From: an uncultured Oscillospiraceae bacterium | GTDB taxonomy: Bacteria; Bacillota; Clostridia; Oscillospirales; Oscillospiraceae | NCBI GenBank assembly: GCA_947624985.1 | Contig: CANQMO010000022.1 | Span: 1 to 42,923 of the forward strand | Reading direction: 5' to 3' | Length of the DNA: 42,923 nucleotides | Part shown: positions 33,789-42,229 of the stretch, in pieces | Layout: each line of letters begins with the position of its first letter | How positions within the stretch are numbered: the first letter of the stretch is position 1 | Program-made: the position numbers and the translations under genes | Notes under the pieces: generated by a model | What the model saw: the letters and a program-made list of their open reading frames with translations, nothing else | Told to the model about the DNA's origin: nothing | Database searches by the model: none

Positions 33789-34166
33789 TTACTCCGGCTC
33801 GACGACAGGAGCCTCCGGGGCGTTGCGGCCAATGGAGGCAATGCCGTTTTTGGCGCTGCTCTTGGCTTTGTAGCCATCGCTGACGGCAATGATCTCACCG
33901 TTGGAAGCTTTCAGACGGAAACGGAACTGGCCGCTCTTGTCCTTGTACAGCTCATACTTGGGGTGAACCAGGGGCATATATCCCTCCTTGGTCTGATCCT
34001 CCACATGGACAGCGCAGTTTTTACGCACGCTCTCCACTCCGGTCTTTGCCGCTCCCACGCTGGAATAGGTCTCGCCACCCGTGGCAATGATCTGGCCATT
34101 GGTGGCATACAGATCGAACACGAATTCACCATTCTTTGTCGCTTTGATCTCAAACTTTGCTGCCAT
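33789..34166 (-). CDS. YegP-like protein with two DUF1508 repeats
   Basis: With the start at 34164-34166 (AAGGAG 7 nt upstream) the protein has 125 residues and two tandem DUF1508 units: KNGEFVFDLYATNGQIIATGGETY and, about 50 residues later, KSGQFRFRLKASNGEIIAVSDGY, each ending in a lysine/serine-rich turn with a GI/GV-x-S-V/I pattern. The family (E. coli YegP) is small, cytoplasmic and of unknown function. It has its own promoter and terminator, so it is monocistronic. Its codon use and low GC differ from the neighbours, which may mean high expression or transfer. The longer frame to 34277 crosses the promoter and is not coding. Confidence 0.9.
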   Translation of the reverse strand: MAAKFEIKATKNGEFVFDLYATNGQIIATGGETYSSVGAAKTGVESVRKNCAVHVEDQTKEGYMPLVHPKYELYKDKSGQFRFRLKASNGEIIAVSDGYKAKSSAKNGIASIGRNAPEAPVVEPE

Positions 34167-34228
34167 GCGTAACTCCTTCTTTCTTTCAAAATATGGGTAA
34201 CGCTGGAAAACACAGTAGAACTGCGTAA

Positions 34229-34257
34229 ATTCTACACCCTGTTCTGAAAAAATGCAA
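34229..34257 (-). promoter_or_regulatory. Promoter of the DUF1508 gene
   Basis: TTGCAT (34252-34257) and TAGAAT (34229-34234) are 17 nt apart on the minus strand, with a TG dinucleotide just before the -10. The transcript would have a 55-nt leader. Confidence 0.7.
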
Positions 34258-34285
34258 GCAAAAATACGCCGGCCCATACATTTGT

Positions 34286-34665: not shown

Positions 34666-34693
34666 TTGCGGACCGCGCCGTCCGGGGTATAAT
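34666..34693 (+). promoter_or_regulatory. Candidate plus-strand promoter next to a hairpin
   Basis: TTGCGG (34666-34671) and a perfect TATAAT (34688-34693) are 16 nt apart. The start point would fall at about 34700, where a perfect 12-bp hairpin (34701-34730) begins, followed by CTTTGTTAT. It may be fortuitous, or drive a very short antisense RNA. Confidence 0.35.
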
Positions 34694-34730
34694 GAAAAGA
34701 GTAGGCACATGGCTGTTTCCATGTGCCTAC
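34691..34730 (-). terminator. Intrinsic terminator at the end of the TRAP-LarA-cupin operon
   Basis: A perfect 12-bp stem, GTAGGCACATGG (34701-34712) and CCATGTGCCTAC (34719-34730), has a 6-nt loop and is followed on the minus strand by TCTTTTCATT. It lies 57 nt after the stop codon of the small cupin gene. Confidence 0.75.
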
Positions 34731-34786
34731 CTTTGTTATACACCTGCCGGCCACCAGCGGTCCGGGCGGGGCTTTACCTCGAAGGC

Positions 34787-35104
34787 TCAATTCGCCGCAT
34801 GAAAATAAAAGATCTTCATATCCGGTGAATCCGGATCCTTCCGGAAGGCATGCCAAGTGTGCGCGGGGATAAGAATGGACATATCCGGTCCCACCTTCAC
34901 ATCCTCATCGTTGATGCGAAAGCTTCCGTGGCCTTCCAGCACGAGAAAACCCTCCTGGTCCTCGTGCTGGTTGAGCTTGCCGTATTCCGTCACATCGCAG
35001 AACATCATCCCGCACATAGCCCCGGAGCCGCCAAACAGCAGATCTGTCTCCGGTCTGGGCGGCGGCGTCAGATCGTCGACCGTGAATTGCCTGTACATCT
35101 CCAT
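34787..35104 (-). CDS. Small single-domain cupin protein
   Basis: With the start at 35102-35104 (AAAGGAG 7 nt upstream) the protein has 105 residues forming one cupin barrel. Cupin motif 1 is seen as H47-x-D49-x-E51 with LEGHGSF and motif 2 as IPAHTWHAF (H82/H85). The usual second histidine of HxH is aspartate, so metal binding may differ. Function is unknown; small cupins of sugar-acid operons are often isomerases, epimerases or binding proteins. It is the last gene of the TRAP-NagB-LarA operon. A longer frame to 35260 overlaps the bicupin and is not used. Confidence 0.8.
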   Translation of the reverse strand: MEMYRQFTVDDLTPPPRPETDLLFGGSGAMCGMMFCDVTEYGKLNQHEDQEGFLVLEGHGSFRINDEDVKVGPDMSILIPAHTWHAFRKDPDSPDMKIFYFHAAN

Positions 35105-35120
35105 ATGTTTTCTCCTTTTT

Positions 35121-35879
35121 TTATCGTCTCGTATTTTGCGGGCCATCCATTCTGTGCGCGGTGCGCATATACTCCATGGCCGTCTCATCCAATAGAAAGT
35201 CCATCCAGAGGTAGCGGACCTGCTGCGTTCCCGCCGAGAGTATCCCATGGCTGGAGCCAAGGGGGATATGCAGCAGCATTCCCTCGGGAAAGGGGTATTT
35301 CAGCTCATCGATGACGGCTGTGCAGTCGTTCCCCTTCAGCCCCAAAAATATCTGCTCGAGCATAGGATGTTCATGGGGCGCTACCATGTCGTCGCCGCCG
35401 GTCTCCACACTGCCCATGGCAAAGCGCGGGATCATCCCGGCAGGGATGAGCATGCGGCTCACGGTCTTTTCGCTCTTGCAGTCCTCCGAGTATGTGGGCG
35501 CGCTGTCATAATCGACCGTATACGGCCCTGGCATGCCCTCCCGAAAAGCCGCCATCTCTTCCCCTGTCACCTGCCGCCGCAGCTCCAGCATGCACGCCTC
35601 GGACGGAGCGTACACCTCCACCGGCGCATCCGGCGTTGGCACATAGACCCCCCCCTCTCCCAGTTTCGCCTCCGTTCCGGCAGAGCGGACCGTTACCTCT
35701 CCTTCCACCGTTATGAGCACCCTGGCACACTGTCCGTCTGCCGGGAGCGACAGCGTCCCACCTACCGGCAGCGTCCGCCACAGCAGTCCGACGCCTTCCA
35801 CCTCATCTTCCAGCACGCACCGGACAGGCTCCCCCGGCTGCGGAACAAGGACGGTGGAGCGTATCTCTTCCGATCTCAT
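35121..35879 (-). CDS. Two-domain cupin protein (bicupin)
   Basis: The 252-residue protein has an N-terminal cupin (about 25-100) without metal-ligand histidines and a C-terminal cupin (about 140-235) with a full set: H169-x-H171-x3-E175 (HEHPMLEQIF) and H211 (PLGSSHGI). Bicupins with one active barrel include isomerases, dioxygenases and lyases; I cannot choose. Its ATG overlaps the larA-like stop by 4 bp (ATGA) and GAGGG precedes it, so it is made together with the LarA-like enzyme. The pairing suggests that it acts on the LarA-like product or substrate. Confidence 0.8.
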   Translation of the reverse strand: MRSEEIRSTVLVPQPGEPVRCVLEDEVEGVGLLWRTLPVGGTLSLPADGQCARVLITVEGEVTVRSAGTEAKLGEGGVYVPTPDAPVEVYAPSEACMLELRRQVTGEEMAAFREGMPGPYTVDYDSAPTYSEDCKSEKTVSRMLIPAGMIPRFAMGSVETGGDDMVAPHEHPMLEQIFLGLKGNDCTAVIDELKYPFPEGMLLHIPLGSSHGILSAGTQQVRYLWMDFLLDETAMEYMRTAHRMDGPQNTRR

Positions 35880-37168
35880 CGCTGTTCCCTCACCCTTACC
35901 ATCGTCTCGCCGCAGTAGGGGATGATGCCAATGGTACTGTCACTCCCCTGACGCGCGTCCGCCTTGGCCAGGGCCTCCTCCATACTCCGGCACAGCTCAA
36001 ATCCCAGCGCGTCCGCATCCGCCTTCGTAAAGCCCTTGGATACCAGAAGGGTATTCACGCCGCGCTTTCTCACCTGGTCCAGATGGATGGGGTTGTCAAT
36101 GGCGATGAGATCTTCGATAAGCCCTTTTTTTACATATTCGCGGATGGTCTGCTCACTCAGCGTGCAATAGTGCCGGAGCGCATATTCGTGATGTGGCGCG
36201 TTGCCGCTGAGCCCTTCTTCCCCGGACAGGGCAAAGATAAGCGTACCTCCGTCCTTCAGACCGTACTGAGAAAACACAAAGGGCTTGTCCGCCTGCCAGA
36301 AGTCCACATCGGCGGGATTGGCGGAGGCGATCACGATATCAGTCCGGCACGGTATCTCCGGGCTGAGGACCTGACGGGCCATCTCGATACCGGCCCGGTG
36401 GGCGGCGATAAAGTCGCCGGAAAAGACGCCCAGGACATGCTTGTCCTCATCCATCACCGTATTGATGATGAATTTTAACCCGACCTGCGCGGCGATCATT
36501 TCCATCTCTCGACGGCACTGGTTATCGGCATTTCCGCAGGTCTCCATCACATTCTGGTCTAACGCCGCGATGAGATGGGTCCCCTGGGTAGTGCGCTCAC
36601 CGCAGATACCCGGCTGGACGATCTTAGCGCCGCCGCCCCAGCCGGCAGAGACATGGGGCACGATATTACCGATCCCCATAATAAAATCTGCCTCCAGCGC
36701 CACCCTGTAGACATCGATGGGTATCCCGCTGGGCGTGTCGCCGATGTGAACGATCTCGTCCTGGTCGGTATAGCTCAGATTGAGAAAACGGTAGGTACTC
36801 AGGATCTGGGGGCCGATATGCTGGAGCTTTTCCTCCTCCGTCATCTGCCGGTGGGTCCCCGGTGCTACACAGATGGTCACATGCTCCCTGGGAACGCCCG
36901 CCAGATCCAGCCGCCGCAGGGCGTGGGTGAGAATGAGCTTCTTGGGCGTGGGACGGGTGACGTCATCGATGAGGACCAGGACATTCATCTCAGGGCTAAC
37001 GAGTTCTTCGAGCCGTCCCGTACCGACAGGCGCGTCCAGCGACTGTTCAATGAGCGCGTCTGTATCCGACGGTATCTCCGGCTTCATGGGCGCGGCATAA
37101 TACATCACACGCTCCTCCGGCAGGTCAAAACACAGTGTGTCTGCTCCAAAAGGGAGAAAATAGCGCAT
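35876..37168 (-). CDS. LarA-family nickel-pincer racemase/epimerase
   Basis: The 430-residue protein (DUF2088/LarA family) keeps the residues that in lactate racemase bind the nickel-pincer nucleotide and do catalysis: DDVTRPTP (D69, R72), H106 (APGTHR), H172 and K182 (PHVSAGWGGGAK) and H198 (QGTHL). The spacing of H106, H172, K182 and H198 equals that of H108, H174, K184 and H200 in L. plantarum LarA. Family members racemise or epimerise various 2-hydroxyacids, including sugar acids, so the substrate is open. The maturation genes larB, larC and larE are not in the window. It lies between the NagB-like gene (6-nt gap) and the bicupin gene (4-bp overlap). Confidence 0.88.
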   Translation of the reverse strand: MRYFLPFGADTLCFDLPEERVMYYAAPMKPEIPSDTDALIEQSLDAPVGTGRLEELVSPEMNVLVLIDDVTRPTPKKLILTHALRRLDLAGVPREHVTICVAPGTHRQMTEEEKLQHIGPQILSTYRFLNLSYTDQDEIVHIGDTPSGIPIDVYRVALEADFIMGIGNIVPHVSAGWGGGAKIVQPGICGERTTQGTHLIAALDQNVMETCGNADNQCRREMEMIAAQVGLKFIINTVMDEDKHVLGVFSGDFIAAHRAGIEMARQVLSPEIPCRTDIVIASANPADVDFWQADKPFVFSQYGLKDGGTLIFALSGEEGLSGNAPHHEYALRHYCTLSEQTIREYVKKGLIEDLIAIDNPIHLDQVRKRGVNTLLVSKGFTKADADALGFELCRSMEEALAKADARQGSDSTIGIIPYCGETMVRVREQR

Positions 37169-37174
37169 TGTCTC

Positions 37175-37957
37175 TCACTCCTCTCTCTCCAAAATACACC
37201 GGCCTGCATCCGCGTCCAGATACACTCTCGCTTCGCCATGCTGACGCAGAACTGAAGCGGGACATGCCTCTGACACAGGGCCCTCCAGCATTTGCCTGAC
37301 CGCGTTCGCTTTCGTGGCGGAAGGGACCACGCAGAAGATCCTGTCAGCCGCCAGGATGCCGGGTATGGTCACCGTCAGCGCAGAATGCGGGACCTGCTCC
37401 AGACTTTCAAAGCACCCGTCGTTCACCTGCTGTTGACGGCAGACCTCGTCCAGAGTCACGATCTTCACCAGTTTGCCGTCATGAAAGTCCGCTTCCCCCG
37501 GGTCGTTGAAAGCCAGGTGGCCGTTCTCGCCCACACCGCAAAGACACACGTCCAGCGGATGCTCCCGCAGCAGTCCCGCATACCGCTCCGCTTCCGCCTC
37601 TGGGTCCGCCGCGTTTCCATCCAACAGCCAAACGCTATGGAAACAGACCCTGTCAAAGATAGCCTTGCGGAGAAAGTTTCCAAACCCCGCGGGGTGCTCT
37701 GCCGGCAGTCCAACGTATTCGTCCATATGAAAAGCGTCTACCCGGGACCAGTCTATCTCTTCGTCCGAGCACAGGGCCGCCAGGAGCTCATTTTGAGACG
37801 GCGCCGCGGCGAACAGCACATTTGCGTGTCCTTTCTCTCCGATCGCGTCACGAATGGCTGCCGACGCCTCCCGGGCGGCGTGCTCCCCCATCTCAGCGCG
37901 GGTGGAAAACACCCTCGCGTGCAACTTCTCCACCGTTAATTCTTTTATCACACTCAT
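37175..37957 (-). CDS. NagB-like (glucosamine-6-phosphate deaminase/isomerase family) protein
   Basis: The 260-residue protein has the NagB fold signatures: FHMDEYVGLPAEHPAGFGNFL (D79, equivalent to E. coli D72), GVGENGHLAFNDP, and LTVTIPGILAADRIFCVVPSATKANAV. In E. coli NagB the second motif is GNDGHIAFNEP with D141, H143 and E148; here they read N145, H147 and D152. The histidine stays, but two acids change. I recall this NGHxAFND form as a paralogous group, so a true GlcN6P deaminase role is doubtful. It follows dctM and precedes the LarA-like gene by 6 nt, with GAGGAG upstream of the ATG. No sugar kinase is nearby to make a phosphorylated substrate. Confidence 0.85.
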   Translation of the reverse strand: MSVIKELTVEKLHARVFSTRAEMGEHAAREASAAIRDAIGEKGHANVLFAAAPSQNELLAALCSDEEIDWSRVDAFHMDEYVGLPAEHPAGFGNFLRKAIFDRVCFHSVWLLDGNAADPEAEAERYAGLLREHPLDVCLCGVGENGHLAFNDPGEADFHDGKLVKIVTLDEVCRQQQVNDGCFESLEQVPHSALTVTIPGILAADRIFCVVPSATKANAVRQMLEGPVSEACPASVLRQHGEARVYLDADAGRCILEREE

Positions 37958-37980
37958 TGATGTCTCCTCGTCATTTCTTT

Positions 37981-39276
37981 TCAGTTCACAAACAGCTTCG
38001 CCAGCGCGGGCAGCGCGGTGGTCAACGGTTCAAACAGGATCACCAGCACGCAGCAGATGATATCCGCCGCAAAAAACGGTATCAGCGCCCTGGTAGCTTT
38101 TTCGATCGAACACTTGCCGATCTTGCAGCTCAAAAACAGCACCGCGCCCACGGGCGGCGTATACTGACCGATGGCCAGGCACATCACGCACCAGACGCCG
38201 AACTGAACGGGGTTGACGCCCAGCTGCATGGCGATAGGCAGAAACATCGGAACAAAGATGATGCACGCCGGCGCGTCGTCCATAACCATACCGATCAGGA
38301 GAAATACCAGCATCATCATCCCCAGCACCGCATACTTGGAATGCGTGATCGAGAAGATCGCGTTCACCAGCAGATCGGGCACTTTTGTGTACGCAAGCAG
38401 CCAGGAAAAAATGGAGGACACACCGATGAGCATCATGACCCCCGCGGTCATGAACGCGGTATTGACAAACATCTTGGGGAGATCCTTCCACTTGAGGCTC
38501 TTATACACAAATTTGGACAGGATAAAATTGTAAAACGCCGCGACAATAGCGGACTCTGTCGGCGTAAAAATACCCAGCAGCGTTCCAAAGATGATGATCA
38601 CAAAGGTTATCAGCGGCGGGAAGCCTTTTTTGAGCGCCTCCTTCTTCTGACCCCAATCCATGATCTCACCCCGTGGGTAATCGTGCTTCTTCGCCGCCAG
38701 GAAGCATACGGTCATGAATGTAACGCCAATGAGGATCCCGGGAATGATCCCGCCCAGAAACATATCGGTGATGGATATGGACCCGGCCACCATGGCATAG
38801 ATGATCATCATATTGCTGGGCGGGATGATGACGCCGATGGTCGCGGTCGTCGCCGTCACAGCCACTGTGAAGCCGTCATCATAGCCGGCCTGGTGCATCA
38901 TAGGCATAAGGATCGGCCCCTCCGCGGCTACGTCGGCCGACGAAGAGCCGGACATCCCGCCAAAGAGCATGCTGAACACTACGTTCACATGAGCCAGACC
39001 GCCCGGTATCCTGCCTACAAACACCTCCGACAGTCTGAGCAGCCGCTTGGACAGGTCGCCGCTGGCCATGAACTGACCTGTCAGAATGAAAAACGGGATA
39101 CAGCACAGAGAAAACGTGTCCATGCCGGTAAATGTCCGCTGGACGATGAGCGTCAGCGGAACGCTCACGTCGCCAAGGACCAGCGCCGCGATGCCGGCCG
39201 CGCAGATCGAGAACACGATCGGTACGCCCAAAAACATCAGCGCGAACATGACAACAAAAAGAATGATCGCTACCAT
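37981..39276 (-). CDS. dctM: TRAP transporter large permease, DctM type
   Basis: The 431-residue membrane protein has about 12 helices of the DctM family: a G/A-rich N-terminus, SGSSSADVAAEGPILMPMM, IIPPSNMMIIYAMVAG, and FIGxxxPP-type blocks near the C-terminus (MCLAIGQYTPPVGAVLF). It uses the sodium or proton gradient for solute uptake with DctQ and DctP. The length is normal. It starts 6 nt after dctQ, with AGAGGT upstream. Confidence 0.93.
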   Translation of the reverse strand: MVAIILFVVMFALMFLGVPIVFSICAAGIAALVLGDVSVPLTLIVQRTFTGMDTFSLCCIPFFILTGQFMASGDLSKRLLRLSEVFVGRIPGGLAHVNVVFSMLFGGMSGSSSADVAAEGPILMPMMHQAGYDDGFTVAVTATTATIGVIIPPSNMMIIYAMVAGSISITDMFLGGIIPGILIGVTFMTVCFLAAKKHDYPRGEIMDWGQKKEALKKGFPPLITFVIIIFGTLLGIFTPTESAIVAAFYNFILSKFVYKSLKWKDLPKMFVNTAFMTAGVMMLIGVSSIFSWLLAYTKVPDLLVNAIFSITHSKYAVLGMMMLVFLLIGMVMDDAPACIIFVPMFLPIAMQLGVNPVQFGVWCVMCLAIGQYTPPVGAVLFLSCKIGKCSIEKATRALIPFFAADIICCVLVILFEPLTTALPALAKLFVN

Positions 39277-39282
39277 AGATAC

Positions 39283-39786
39283 CTACCTCTTCGGATCCGC
39301 TTTCGCCCCGTGGATCATGGAAACATCTTCCAGCACGATCCCAAGACAGTTGACCATTACAATGACCCCGCACACGGGGATGACCATGTAGATATATCCC
39401 ATGGGAAACCCGCAGCACATCATCGTGCGGCTCATCCCGCTCATTGCAAAGATGTATCCGTACCGGATGAACACGTATCCCACCGCAGCGCACACTACAT
39501 AGGATAATATATGGACCATGGCCTTCAGCGACCGGTTTTTTATCCTGTCCGTCACCAGGACCAGACCCATATGCGTGCCGTTGCTCAGACCGAGCGAACC
39601 GCCGATCATGGATATCCAGATCAGCATATAGCGGCAGACCTCCTCCGTCCACGAGGACGGATTGTTGAGAACGAACCGCGTAAAGACCTGCCATAGGACC
39701 ACAAGGCATATCGCGCATGTCAGCACGCCTAACACCGCTTTGATCAGCATGTCGGCAAGTGCCTTACCCTTGAAAAACCACTTCAT
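39283..39786 (-). CDS. dctQ: TRAP transporter small permease, DctQ type
   Basis: With the start at 39784-39786 the protein has 167 residues, four predicted helices and the DctQ stretch FTRFVLNNPSSWTEEVCRYMLIW, typical of this small subunit. It stabilises DctM. A longer frame to 39813 includes the probable ribosome binding site. A strong terminator-like hairpin (39839-39871) separates it from dctP. Confidence 0.9.
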   Translation of the reverse strand: MKWFFKGKALADMLIKAVLGVLTCAICLVVLWQVFTRFVLNNPSSWTEEVCRYMLIWISMIGGSLGLSNGTHMGLVLVTDRIKNRSLKAMVHILSYVVCAAVGYVFIRYGYIFAMSGMSRTMMCCGFPMGYIYMVIPVCGVIVMVNCLGIVLEDVSMIHGAKADPKR

Positions 39787-39838
39787 AATACCCTCTCTCC
39801 ATATTACTCCCACGCCCAGTACGGGAGGGCTGTCTCTG

Positions 39839-39871
39839 AAAAAGGGCCGGCCGGAGGTCCCGGCCGGTCCC
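39839..39871 (-). terminator. Internal terminator/attenuator between dctP and dctQ
   Basis: CCGGCCGG (39847-39854) and CCGGCCGG (39860-39867) form an 8-bp self-complementary stem, lengthened to 11 bp by GGG/CCC with one bulged T, and followed on the minus strand by TTTTT. It lies just after dctP. Partial termination here would make the binding protein in excess over the permeases. Confidence 0.75.
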
Positions 39872-39880
39872 TGCGGACGG

Positions 39881-40966
39881 TCACGCGCCCAACTCGTTTA
39901 TGATATCAAGGATCTTCACTGCTTCATCGGTCGTCGCATACTTCTGGTAGACGTCCGAACACTTCTCGGCAAAGGCATTGCGCTGCTCAGCGGTGAGCTC
40001 CGTATAGACGCAGCCCGCCTTGATAAGGTTGTCGAACGCCTCCTTCTCGCCGTCGTCGAATATCTCAGATGCATAGGCCTTCGCCTGAGCGGCAGCGTCC
40101 AGGATCCAGCCCTGTTCTTCCTCGGTCAGGCTGTTCCAGTAATCCAGGCTGCAACACAGAACACTGGGCACACGAAGGTGCTCCGTATTGGAGAAATACT
40201 TTGCCGTCTCAAACCATCTGAGAGTATACACGGAAGAGTAGTTGTTCTCACATGCGTCCAACAGCCCCTGAGACAGAGAGGTGAAAACCTCCCCGGAGTT
40301 CATCGGTGTGGGAGACGCGCCCATGGCCGTAAAGCCGTCCTGGATGCTCTGCGCTCCCATGGTGCGGATCTTCAGGCCCTTCAAGTCATCGGGCGTAGCC
40401 ACAGGACCATTGATAGTGAAGATATTTCTGGTGCCCTCGTCATACAGAGCAATGAGCTTCAGACCGGCGTTCTCAAACAGTTCCTGGTAGATCTCACCCA
40501 CCTCGCCGTCAATGACTGCGTTAAAGTGTTCCTTGTCTTTGAAAAGGAACGGCAGATTGAACAGCGCCAGCTCAGGAACGAACGTGACCATGTTGCCCGC
40601 GCTCACCCGGGTCAGCTCCAGCATGCCCAGTTTGCAGCTCTCCACCGTGTCGGACTCCTCGCCAAGGATACCGTCAAAGAACGTCTGTACCTCAACGGTT
40701 CCGCCGCTCAGTTCGCCCATCTTTTCCTGGAACAGCGTGTCCGCCTTGCAAAGGGGATAATCAGCCGAGTCACTGGCCGCCAGACGGATGACCTTTGCCC
40801 CGGATGCGTCACTGTCCGCGCCTTCCTCCTGCACATCCTCCTGGGCCGTGCCCTCTGCCTTTGGCTCTTCCTTCCCGGAAGCCTGACCGGAACCGGAGCT
40901 GCTGCACCCCGTAAACAGCGCAAGGCACATGACGACCGCCAACAACAGTGCTAAGATTCGTTTCAT
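39881..40966 (-). CDS. dctP: TRAP transporter solute-binding lipoprotein, DctP type
   Basis: The 361-residue protein has a lipoprotein signal (LALFTGC, lipid-modified Cys near 21), an acidic Gly/Glu-rich linker and a DctP fold. Landmarks are LGMLELTRVSAGN, NLPFLFKD, LALYDEGTRNIFT-like LIALYDEGTRNI and LKGLKIRTMG. In DctP proteins the arginine of the GLKIR block usually clamps a substrate carboxylate, so an organic acid or sugar acid is likely. AAGGAGG precedes the ATG. It is the first gene of the operon, under a LacI-type operator. Confidence 0.94.
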   Translation of the reverse strand: MKRILALLLAVVMCLALFTGCSSSGSGQASGKEEPKAEGTAQEDVQEEGADSDASGAKVIRLAASDSADYPLCKADTLFQEKMGELSGGTVEVQTFFDGILGEESDTVESCKLGMLELTRVSAGNMVTFVPELALFNLPFLFKDKEHFNAVIDGEVGEIYQELFENAGLKLIALYDEGTRNIFTINGPVATPDDLKGLKIRTMGAQSIQDGFTAMGASPTPMNSGEVFTSLSQGLLDACENNYSSVYTLRWFETAKYFSNTEHLRVPSVLCCSLDYWNSLTEEEQGWILDAAAQAKAYASEIFDDGEKEAFDNLIKAGCVYTELTAEQRNAFAEKCSDVYQKYATTDEAVKILDIINELGA

Positions 40967-41023
40967 TTTTGTTCCTCCTTCGTATGATTTTCTTTATGAT
41001 CTTGTCCAAATTATCGCCTGACG

Positions 41024-41053
41024 ATCATATTTACTCGTGTAAATGTCTGGCAA
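41024..41053 (-). promoter_or_regulatory. Promoter of the dctP-to-cupin operon
   Basis: TTGCCA (41048-41053) and TATGAT (41024-41029) are 18 nt apart on the minus strand, about 58 nt before the dctP start. A LacI-type palindrome fills the spacer between the two boxes. Confidence 0.65.
41029..41044. promoter_or_regulatory. LacI-type operator in the dctP promoter
   Basis: ATTTACTCGTGTAAAT is a 16-bp near-perfect palindrome (one central mismatched pair) around a CpG, the centre typical of LacI-family sites where the hinge helices insert. It lies between the -35 and -10 boxes, so a bound repressor would block RNA polymerase. The regulator gene is directly upstream. Confidence 0.7.
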
Positions 41054-41088
41054 TAAATGAAGCCCATGGGATTTCGTGAGAGTGGTTC

Positions 41089-42138
41089 TTAAGCGCTGGC
41101 CCGTTTGACAAGGGCCAGTTCAAAATGTTGATCTGCCGTCGCATGACCGGATATCTTCTCCATCAGCGCGTCGATGGCGGTCTCCCCTATCTCCTTACAA
41201 GGCAGCCGCACCGTAGTGAGCTCAGGCACGATAATGGAAGCGGACAGCGTGTCGCCAAACCCCACTACCTCCAGATCGTCCGGTACAAAAACACCTCTCT
41301 GGAAAAAGCCCTTGATCAGTTCCGCCGCCATGATATCGGAATTGACATAGAAAGCAGTGGGGCGCTGACTTTCTTCCATCCTGAAGTAGGCGTCGATGAC
41401 GCCCTCCACGTTCAGATACTTCCTGCTTTCATATTTCAGCGCGTCCAGGAAAAAAATGTACTTTTTCTCTGGCGCCAGACCGTGCTTGCGCAGGGAATCC
41501 TGATAGCCGTTCACTCTCAGCCCCTCTCCATTGTCTTGCTCCAGCGTCTTCTCCGGGTCGCCGTCGCCCAGATAAGCGATACGTCGGTGATGTTTCTCGT
41601 CAAAAAGATAATCTACGGCGCCGCAAACAGCCTGCCGAATGCTGGGAAGGATCTGGGTGATCATCGGGCTGATCTCACTGTCCGTCTCGGCAAACATGAA
41701 CAGTACCACCGGCATCCCGCCTTCGGCGATCTTATTGAGCCGGCGCAGATACTCGTCCTTAAGGGGAATGAGCGCGGAGAAGATGAACGCTCCGCAATAC
41801 TGCCGGCTGTTAAGAGCATTGAGCATGGTAAACGCGTTGGCGCCGGAATAGGAGGACACGGTCAGGGTGTAATTGTGCTCTGCGGCCACATGCTCCATGT
41901 AAAAGTGTATCTCAGAAAAGATCTCACTGCGGATGTCGTCAGTAAGCAATAGGATCTGATTGGACTTACCGGATTTCAGGCTTCTGGCCAAGGCGTTGGG
42001 AAAGTATCCCAGTTCATCGATGACCTTTAACACCGCTTCCCGCTTCTCCTGACTCACATAATTGGAGTTATTGATCACATACGACACAACGGCCGGGGAA
42101 ACATTCGCCCTTTTTGCCACGTCATTTCTTGTTATCAC
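41089..42138 (-). CDS. LacI-family transcriptional regulator
   Basis: The 349-residue protein has an N-terminal LacI helix-turn-helix (RNDVAKRANVSPAVVSYVINNSNYVS), the hinge helix (ALARSLKSG) and a periplasmic-binding-protein-like effector domain (residues about 60-340) with AFYVNSDIMAAELIKG and DDLEVVGFGDT. The start codon is GTG (42136-42138), with GAGAGG upstream. It likely represses the TRAP operon 121 nt downstream and its own gene, with induction by a metabolite of the route. No terminator follows it, so some read-through into dctP is possible. Confidence 0.93.
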   Translation of the reverse strand: MITRNDVAKRANVSPAVVSYVINNSNYVSQEKREAVLKVIDELGYFPNALARSLKSGKSNQILLLTDDIRSEIFSEIHFYMEHVAAEHNYTLTVSSYSGANAFTMLNALNSRQYCGAFIFSALIPLKDEYLRRLNKIAEGGMPVVLFMFAETDSEISPMITQILPSIRQAVCGAVDYLFDEKHHRRIAYLGDGDPEKTLEQDNGEGLRVNGYQDSLRKHGLAPEKKYIFFLDALKYESRKYLNVEGVIDAYFRMEESQRPTAFYVNSDIMAAELIKGFFQRGVFVPDDLEVVGFGDTLSASIIVPELTTVRLPCKEIGETAIDALMEKISGHATADQHFELALVKRASA

Positions 42139-42189
42139 GGTTCTGCCTCTCTGCGGAACAGCCGCCGCTCCCGGACTTTCGATGTTATC

Positions 42190-42218
42190 ACTTTAGCACA
42201 AAAATCCGCCTAAGTAAA
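42190..42218 (-). promoter_or_regulatory. Promoter of the lacI-family gene
   Basis: TTTACT (42213-42218) and TAAAGT (42190-42195) are 17 nt apart on the minus strand. The -35 box overlaps an operator-like sequence (42214-42229). Confidence 0.6.
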
Positions 42219-42229
42219 CACGTGTAGAT
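42214..42229. promoter_or_regulatory. LacI-type operator in the regulator promoter
   Basis: GTAAACACGTGTAGAT has the ACACGTGT palindrome core with a central CpG. Aligned on that CpG it matches the operator at 41029-41044 at 11 of 16 positions, including TGTA-A/G-A-T on one side. It overlaps the -35 box of the regulator gene, so negative autoregulation is likely. Confidence 0.6.

Follow-up and report, generated by a model that had tools for sequence, protein, structure and literature searches.

The window analysed here is contig CANQMO010000022.1 (42,923 nucleotides; C22 of a 44-contig, 2.28-Mb assembly) of an uncultured Oscillospiraceae bacterium, and its minus strand carries a seven-gene operon with a tripartite ATP-independent periplasmic (TRAP) transporter, two putative sugar-acid or hydroxy-acid enzymes and two cupins. 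The first gene, dctP (39881 to 40966; Pfam DctP, 238 bits), encodes the solute-binding lipoprotein, in which the lipobox FTGC was recognised by sequence reading. It is followed by dctQ for the small membrane subunit (39283 to 39786; Pfam DctQ, 100 bits; ATG start, an alternative GTG start would put the 5' end at 39813) and dctM for the large membrane subunit (37981 to 39276; Pfam DctM, 396 bits; NCBIfam TIGR00786, 404 bits, above cut-off); the TRAP P, Q and M subunits are all present together. Then come nagB-like, for a predicted aldose-ketose isomerase/deaminase without the 6-phosphate loop (37175 to 37957; Pfam Glucosamine_iso, 77 bits), and larA-like, for a predicted 2-hydroxyacid epimerase using the nickel-pincer nucleotide (NPN) cofactor (35876 to 37168; Pfam Lar_N, 175 bits, and LarA_C). 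The last two genes encode a bicupin, proposed as a sugar-acid isomerase, whose C-terminal part holds a full cupin metal motif by sequence reading (35121 to 35879; Pfam Cupin_2, 36 bits), and a small single-domain cupin (34787 to 35104; Pfam Cupin_2, 47 bits). The dctQ-dctM, dctM-nagB and nagB-larA gaps are 6, 23 and 6 bp and an ATGA overlap joins larA and the bicupin gene, which argues that dctQ through the bicupin gene form one unit.

Upstream of dctP on the same strand lies a gene with a GTG start for a LacI/GalR-family regulator (41089 to 42138; Pfam LacI, 60 bits, and Peripla_BP_3, 102 bits), which scored under the cut-off in all 17 NCBIfam models listed. A sigma-70-like promoter site, TTGCCA-18-TATGAT (41053 to 41024, minus strand), was found by pattern match, and the spacer between its -35 and -10 elements holds the palindrome TTTACACGAGTAAA (41030 to 41043), a candidate operator that may be bound by the LacI-type protein. 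Seven sigma-70-like sites were found against a mean of 5.0 in shuffled sequences, a chance figure that is circular because the search pattern was derived from this same site. Hairpins with a T run numbered nine against a shuffle mean of 7.6 and were not rarer in the shuffles, so the terminator-like hairpin of 13 pairs with a T run at the operon end (34731 to 34700, minus strand; hairpin scan) is assigned by its position. The seven genes, the LacI-family gene, the promoter with its palindrome and this hairpin were all present as the first-pass annotation had described them; that layout had left unmentioned a GC-rich hairpin with a trailing T run in the dctP/dctQ interval (39867 to 39847, minus strand; hairpin scan), which probably attenuates the transcript and lowers expression of the permease relative to the binding protein.

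The NagB-like protein scored under the cut-off in all eight NCBIfam models listed (glucosamine-6-phosphate deaminase, 135.5 bits against 528; TIGR00502, 132.2 against 236.9), and the species-genome scan yielded at least 586 stretches encoding its relatives. A family sample of 90, composed of the best 80 of these at least 586 stretches and 10 loci (designated by L numbers throughout) from relatives of the window's genus, family and order, was aligned with 39 canonical NagB-type proteins as controls; L043 to L046 (NagB relatives of 32 to 35% and 42%) were left out of both groups, and a match in genome G086 is not part of the sample. D79 (the Asp of HMDEY), H147 and K216, which we take to be the equivalents of active-site Asp72, His143 and Lys208 in E. 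coli NagB numbering, are invariant in 90/90 family members and 39/39 canonical proteins. The canonical phosphate loop T-G-[SG]-[ST]-P (among the 39 controls, G is invariant and precedes S, G, N or D and then S or T, whereas T occurs in 38 and P in 36) is replaced by A-A-P-S-Q in the window protein, and from the second position of the loop on, positions 52 to 55 read A-P-S-Q in all 90 family members. The Arg of the RFF motif, found in 37/39 canonical proteins, is Gly in 89/90, and the active-site Glu (39/39) is Asp in 90/90. Simulations of S. mutans NagB reported in PMC8369159 assign the binding of the phosphate to the corresponding residues Ser37, Thr38 and Lys194. On these alignments, the family retains the NagB chemistry and has abandoned the 6-phosphate.

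Besides the fold and the active-site Asp, His and Lys, the family has in common with NagB glucosamine-6-phosphate deaminase a NagA-like amidohydrolase gene in the same operon (67 of the 90 family loci); it differs in lacking the phosphate loop and RFF Arg, in the change of Glu to Asp, and in that the partner is itself remodelled. In 15 of 16 control NagA proteins, H-x-[FY] is followed by Asn and there is a single Arg, the exception (L227) being of the family type. Among the 67 NagA-like partners of the family, Ser replaces this Asn in 66 and an additional Arg occurs in 66, separated by an insertion of about four residues from the old Arg, which is kept in all 67. NagA-like and NagB-like enzymes are both rebuilt at matching loops, and we infer that the new group recognised there is a carboxylate. 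A glucosamine-6-phosphate deaminase in the classical N-acetylglucosamine 6-phosphate pathway was ruled out by the lost phosphate site in both proteins. L227 (genome G070), taken first as a control and counted both ways below, combines a NagA of the family type with a NagB-like gene whose frame is broken, close to matches to UxaB, UxaC and UxaA.

The first-pass annotation saw no match between the operon and uronate catabolism, a view that is not supported: uronate and hexonate operons elsewhere contain relatives of its NagB-like and LarA-like genes. NagB-like genes lie inside some operons of the Ashwell uronate pathway (L115, L289 and L286). The gene row of L115 is KdgK-Eda-MFS-NagB-mannonate oxidoreductase-UxuA, without NagA; its 2-keto-3-deoxy-6-phosphogluconate (KDPG) aldolase, D-mannonate oxidoreductase and UxuA scored above the NCBIfam cut-offs and its kinase below. 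On one strand, L289 carries UxaA-UxaB-KduI/IolB-SIS-NagA-NagB-AGE, and the uronate-type family loci L277 and L286 have TRAP transporters. L105 combines NagA-like and NagB-like genes with three that score above cut-off, namely those for a mannonate oxidoreductase, a LarAH18 hexonate epimerase and a 6-phosphogluconate dehydrogenase. Proteins of the KduI/IolB family (PF04962) accompany the NagB-like genes of L277 and L289. The further scan covered 20 of the 27 places outside the window's own genome, and Gfo/Idh, most TIM-barrel, MFS, HIT-like and GH20-like genes, several regulators and the UxaA-like gene of the own genome were named by sequence reading, without a model. A gene for a SIS-domain protein was also observed within 6 kb of the NagB-like gene at 11/109 family loci and 1/39 control loci (p = 0.18; e.g., L277, L282, L289, L065 and L105).

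In the Protein Data Bank (PDB), the window DctP comes closest to 4n8y, at E = 4e-59, and to 4x8r, at E = 2e-53, with alignments over about 290 residues; PMC11668362 describes these two as galacturonate- and glucuronate-bound. The window protein is a homologue of these uronate-binding proteins and, by this homology, is predicted to bind a hexuronate.

In the window LarA, D72, R75, H108, H174, K184, H200 and K298 (LarA numbering) are all kept; the list of catalytic and NPN-binding residues was taken from PMC7583248. The protein scored under the cut-off in all six NCBIfam LarA models listed, the hexonate epimerase LarAH18 among them (NF052594, 49.6 bits against 500), and malate or lactate racemase was likewise rejected as a family label on scores below cut-off. 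Position 294 is Trp in 22 of 48 aligned LarAs, including the window LarA and the LarAH18 of L105, and Tyr in 26; PMC7583248 gives a Trp in helix 11 for hexonate-epimerase groups 18 to 20. The specificity residues of LarA, Mar2 and GntE2 differ from the V-S and D of the window LarA. At L320, a Trp-type LarA has neither the Gln nor the catalytic Lys.

Among 309 class genomes, the nearest relative of the window LarA was that of L314 (50% identical, support 1.0), which adjoins a gene for a gluconate-5-dehydrogenase-like SDR (302 bits, cut-off 408), with GH78, GH88 (uronyl-hydrolase) and sulfatase genes farther along; the best relative among 394 order genomes was 36% identical. Other relatives stand in TRAP-LarA arrangements (L174), in TRAP-LarA arrangements with KDPG-aldolase-like Eda genes (L315 and L316, the latter also with DgoK), or with galactarate/altronate-dehydratase-like genes (L317 to L319). 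The LarA places examined were 12 of the 59 outside the own genome in the class-genome scan and 10 of about 85 in the order-genome scan.

A tree built from the 90 loci, the window and four outgroups places the window NagB in a clade of nine with a support of 0.997, which drops to 0.83 on adding 20 more sequences. Five of the nine clade members, the window included, have a LarA no more than 1.5 kb from NagB, against 0 of the 82 others (Fisher p = 3e-6, uncorrected for shared ancestry; the window LarA and the L053-cluster LarA served as references for scoring), and LarA directly adjoins NagB at four other loci, all within the clade. Outside this count, the LarAH18 gene of L105 is two genes away from NagB, and L290, not a clade member, has a same-strand LarA that follows NagB downstream at a distance of about 4.6 kb. 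ABC permeases, a small HIT-like protein, LarA, a NagB-like protein and AGE are encoded at L053, L058, L059 (Clostridium citroniae) and L062, with a NagA-like gene at three of these; the HIT-like motif was read by eye, and Pfam gave no hit for the two small proteins tested. The LarAs of these four loci are on a different branch from the window LarA, so the NagB-LarA pairing arose more than once or LarA was exchanged. A LarA subfamily 49 to 69% identical to the L053 type (L175 to L178, L053, L058, L059, L062, L321 and L322) was observed with varying subsets of small HIT-like, AGE and Gfo/Idh-like neighbours, and with a GH20-like gene in L177 and L178.

The first-pass annotation had called the operon self-contained, which does not stand for a uronate route, as the dehydratase, aldolase and kinase are encoded elsewhere in the genome. 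UxuA (mannonate dehydratase) and a nearby KDPG-aldolase-like Eda are on contig C33, and a region of contig C3 encodes a TRAP DctP, a 2-keto-3-deoxygluconate-kinase-like KdgK, UxaC (glucuronate isomerase), UxaB (tagaturonate reductase, 597 bits against an NCBIfam cut-off of 359) and, by sequence reading, a UxaA-like protein. Matches to LarC (PF01969) and LarE (TIGR00268), both over cut-off, are adjacent on contig C1.

Elsewhere in the window, a DUF1508 gene with two matched stretches (33789 to 34277; Pfam) lies just past the operon's terminator-like hairpin. Positions 880 to 25794 hold housekeeping, cell-wall and division genes (class II tRNA synthetase, YchF, FtsH-like protease, TilS, FtsZ, an EPSP-synthase-fold enzyme, a Mur ligase and MraW).

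From the DctP homology, the NagB pocket and contexts, and the LarA subgroup and contexts, we propose, with a probability of roughly 60%, that the uronate-type TRAP transporter of the operon takes up a hexuronate-class sugar acid, which the operon's enzymes turn by isomerisation into an Ashwell-pathway intermediate. The substrate is possibly an amino-hexuronate. A sugar-acid pathway, perhaps for an amino-sugar acid, had been suggested before and is backed by DctP, LarA and the NagB family. None of the named Ashwell enzymes is in the operon, and the proposed product would feed into that pathway. DctPQM would import the acid, its class following from homology and the ligand itself being predicted. 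The LarA-like protein, with its catalytic residues in place and its nickel-pincer cofactor, would then invert the carbon adjoining the carboxylate, either C5 of an open-chain uronate or C2 of an aldonate or keto form. The NagB-like protein would convert an aldose or 2-amino-aldose to a fructuronate- or tagaturonate-like ketose, by isomerisation only or, if the substrate is an amino-uronate, by deamination with loss of ammonia; the lost phosphate loop would fit a C6 carboxylate in place of the 6-phosphate. In the weakest part of the scheme, the metal bicupin and the cupin might aid further isomerisation or ring opening. UxaC, UxaB, the UxaA-like protein, KdgK, UxuA and Eda, encoded elsewhere, would complete the breakdown, and the LacI-type protein may repress the promoter until the sugar acid arrives.

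Several observations weigh against the hexuronate proposal. Co-occurrence of the gene set in other genomes held for parts and not for the whole: the full seven-gene set had no second instance among the genomes searched, and TRAP with NagB recurred at five loci, TRAP with LarA at three and TRAP-cupin-NagB at one. The window operon has no NagA, and the rest of the genome was not searched for one. Same-strand uronate genes no more than 9 kb away were found at 14/109 family loci and 1/39 canonical nagB loci (two-sided p = 0.12), at 14/107 and 1/39 after removal of two later duplicates (p = 0.07, not significant), and at 15/110 family loci when L227 was moved to the family side (p = 0.07). The first sample alone gave 10/90 against 2/40 with L227 as a control (p = 0.34) or 11/90 against 1/20 (p = 0.69), and the second sample alone (19 loci) gave p values of 0.03 to 0.10. 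The duplicates concerned are L100/L274 and L284/L286, the latter over the 3987 bases of L284; L280, a duplicate of L105, had been dropped, and L070, L081 and L085, about 95% alike, were kept in both the 109- and the 107-locus counts. Firm enrichment was rejected, as the whole-sample two-sided p value varied between 0.06 and 1.0 with the choice of sample and distance and with the handling of duplicates and of L227. Individual loci make a persuasive case for the uronate link, which is not proven as a rate, and polysaccharides with both uronates and amino sugars could explain uronate genes beside NagA and NagB. The top NCBIfam score of the window LarA is to malate racemase LarAH6 (NF052593, 281.9 bits against 500), a KduI-like neighbour also occurs at a Tyr-type LarA locus (L323), and the specificity loop of the window LarA is V-S, where PMC7583248 gives E-V/S for hexonate epimerases.

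The bicupin belongs with these contrary points. Bicupin relatives were found in 1/393 other order genomes (E = 1e-10) and 9/390 other class genomes (E = 1e-8), ten loci in all, of which seven (L137, L186 and L196 to L200) represent one conserved, unrelated glycyl-radical-enzyme cluster. The cluster bicupins are 28 to 35% identical to the window bicupin in the six aligned. No NagB-family or LarA gene stands beside the bicupin at any of the ten loci; at L137, the distance to a NagB-fold gene is about 9 kb. In varying subsets, the cluster holds a PFL-like glycyl radical enzyme, its activase, the bicupin, a ManA-like protein, a ketose-3-epimerase-like TIM barrel and Gfo/Idh oxidoreductases; the glycyl radical enzyme of L197 is below every NCBIfam cut-off, and the L200 contig stops before any such enzyme. 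The KduI/IolB bicupin isomerases have the two-cupin architecture in common with the window bicupin, and no sequence relation was detected: membership was rejected in the absence of a PF04962 match and with a profile-comparison probability of 1.1%. The small cupin is 36% identical over 78 residues to a cupin at L282 (TRAP-cupin-SIS-NagB-NagA), the only locus returned by the search for small-cupin relatives near NagB in the sampled loci.

A simple hydroxy-acid operon, in which the TRAP transporter and LarA handle malate- or lactate-like acids and the NagB-like protein and cupins act on something else, appears unlikely. C4-dicarboxylates are a frequent cargo of TRAP transporters, the two best LarA scores are to LarAH6 and to lactate racemase (246.1 bits), and the best PDB match is the malate racemase Mar2. 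However, both scores are below cut-off, position 294 is Trp and not the Tyr of 26 aligned LarAs, and the nearest LarA relatives stand with uronyl-hydrolase, Eda, DgoK and altronate-dehydratase-like genes; DctP is closest to uronate binders, and the NagB-LarA adjacency recurs at four other loci.

It is similarly improbable that the family serves unphosphorylated amino sugars, with the NagA-like enzyme deacetylating a free N-acetyl sugar, the NagB-like enzyme deaminating free glucosamine or galactosamine, no carboxylate involved, and nearby uronate genes belonging to co-degraded polysaccharides. The NagA-like partner in 67/90 loci, the phosphate site lost in both partners, and the Gfo/Idh-like and TIM-barrel sugar genes that are common neighbours (named by sequence reading) would fit such a role. 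Yet the two near-invariant Arg residues of the NagA loop (66/67 and 67/67), together with Lys216 of the NagB-like protein, suggest an anion, the window operon combines an acid-type transporter and LarA without NagA, and L115 is a uronate route that lacks NagA. A hexonate pathway, with an imported aldonate epimerised at C2 by LarA and the NagB-like protein acting as a lactonase, has L316 (TRAP-LarA-Eda-DgoK), L317 to L319 and the place of 6-phosphogluconolactonases within the NagB fold in its favour, but is very unlikely given a deaminase score of 135.5 bits that exceeds the lactonase score of 64.1 bits (NCBIfam), the retained ring-opening His and Asp, and NagA partners that point to amino sugars.

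Within the hexuronate proposal, a bolder and more doubtful version can be put forward tentatively. The family may represent a widespread kinase-free route for 2-amino-2-deoxy-hexuronates, in which NagA and NagB paralogues, rebuilt to accept a C6 carboxylate, would take hexosaminuronates by deacetylation and deamination directly to fructuronate or tagaturonate, and the window LarA may be a free-uronate C5-epimerase converting the L- to the D-series. C5-epimerisation of free uronates is not among the reactions in the parts of the nickel-pincer literature covered, and neither amino-uronate deaminases nor LarA acting on uronates appeared among the titles and abstracts listed in searches of the open-access literature.

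For the family, the 'glucosamine-6-phosphate deaminase' label derived from Pfam is contradicted by the lost phosphate site, and the NagA label of the partner probably is too. If the substrate is an amino-hexuronate, the operon would suggest a way in which bacteria make use of the amino-uronic acids of bacterial capsules and O-antigens and, if true, nickel-pincer enzymes would extend from hydroxy-acids and hexonates to uronates.

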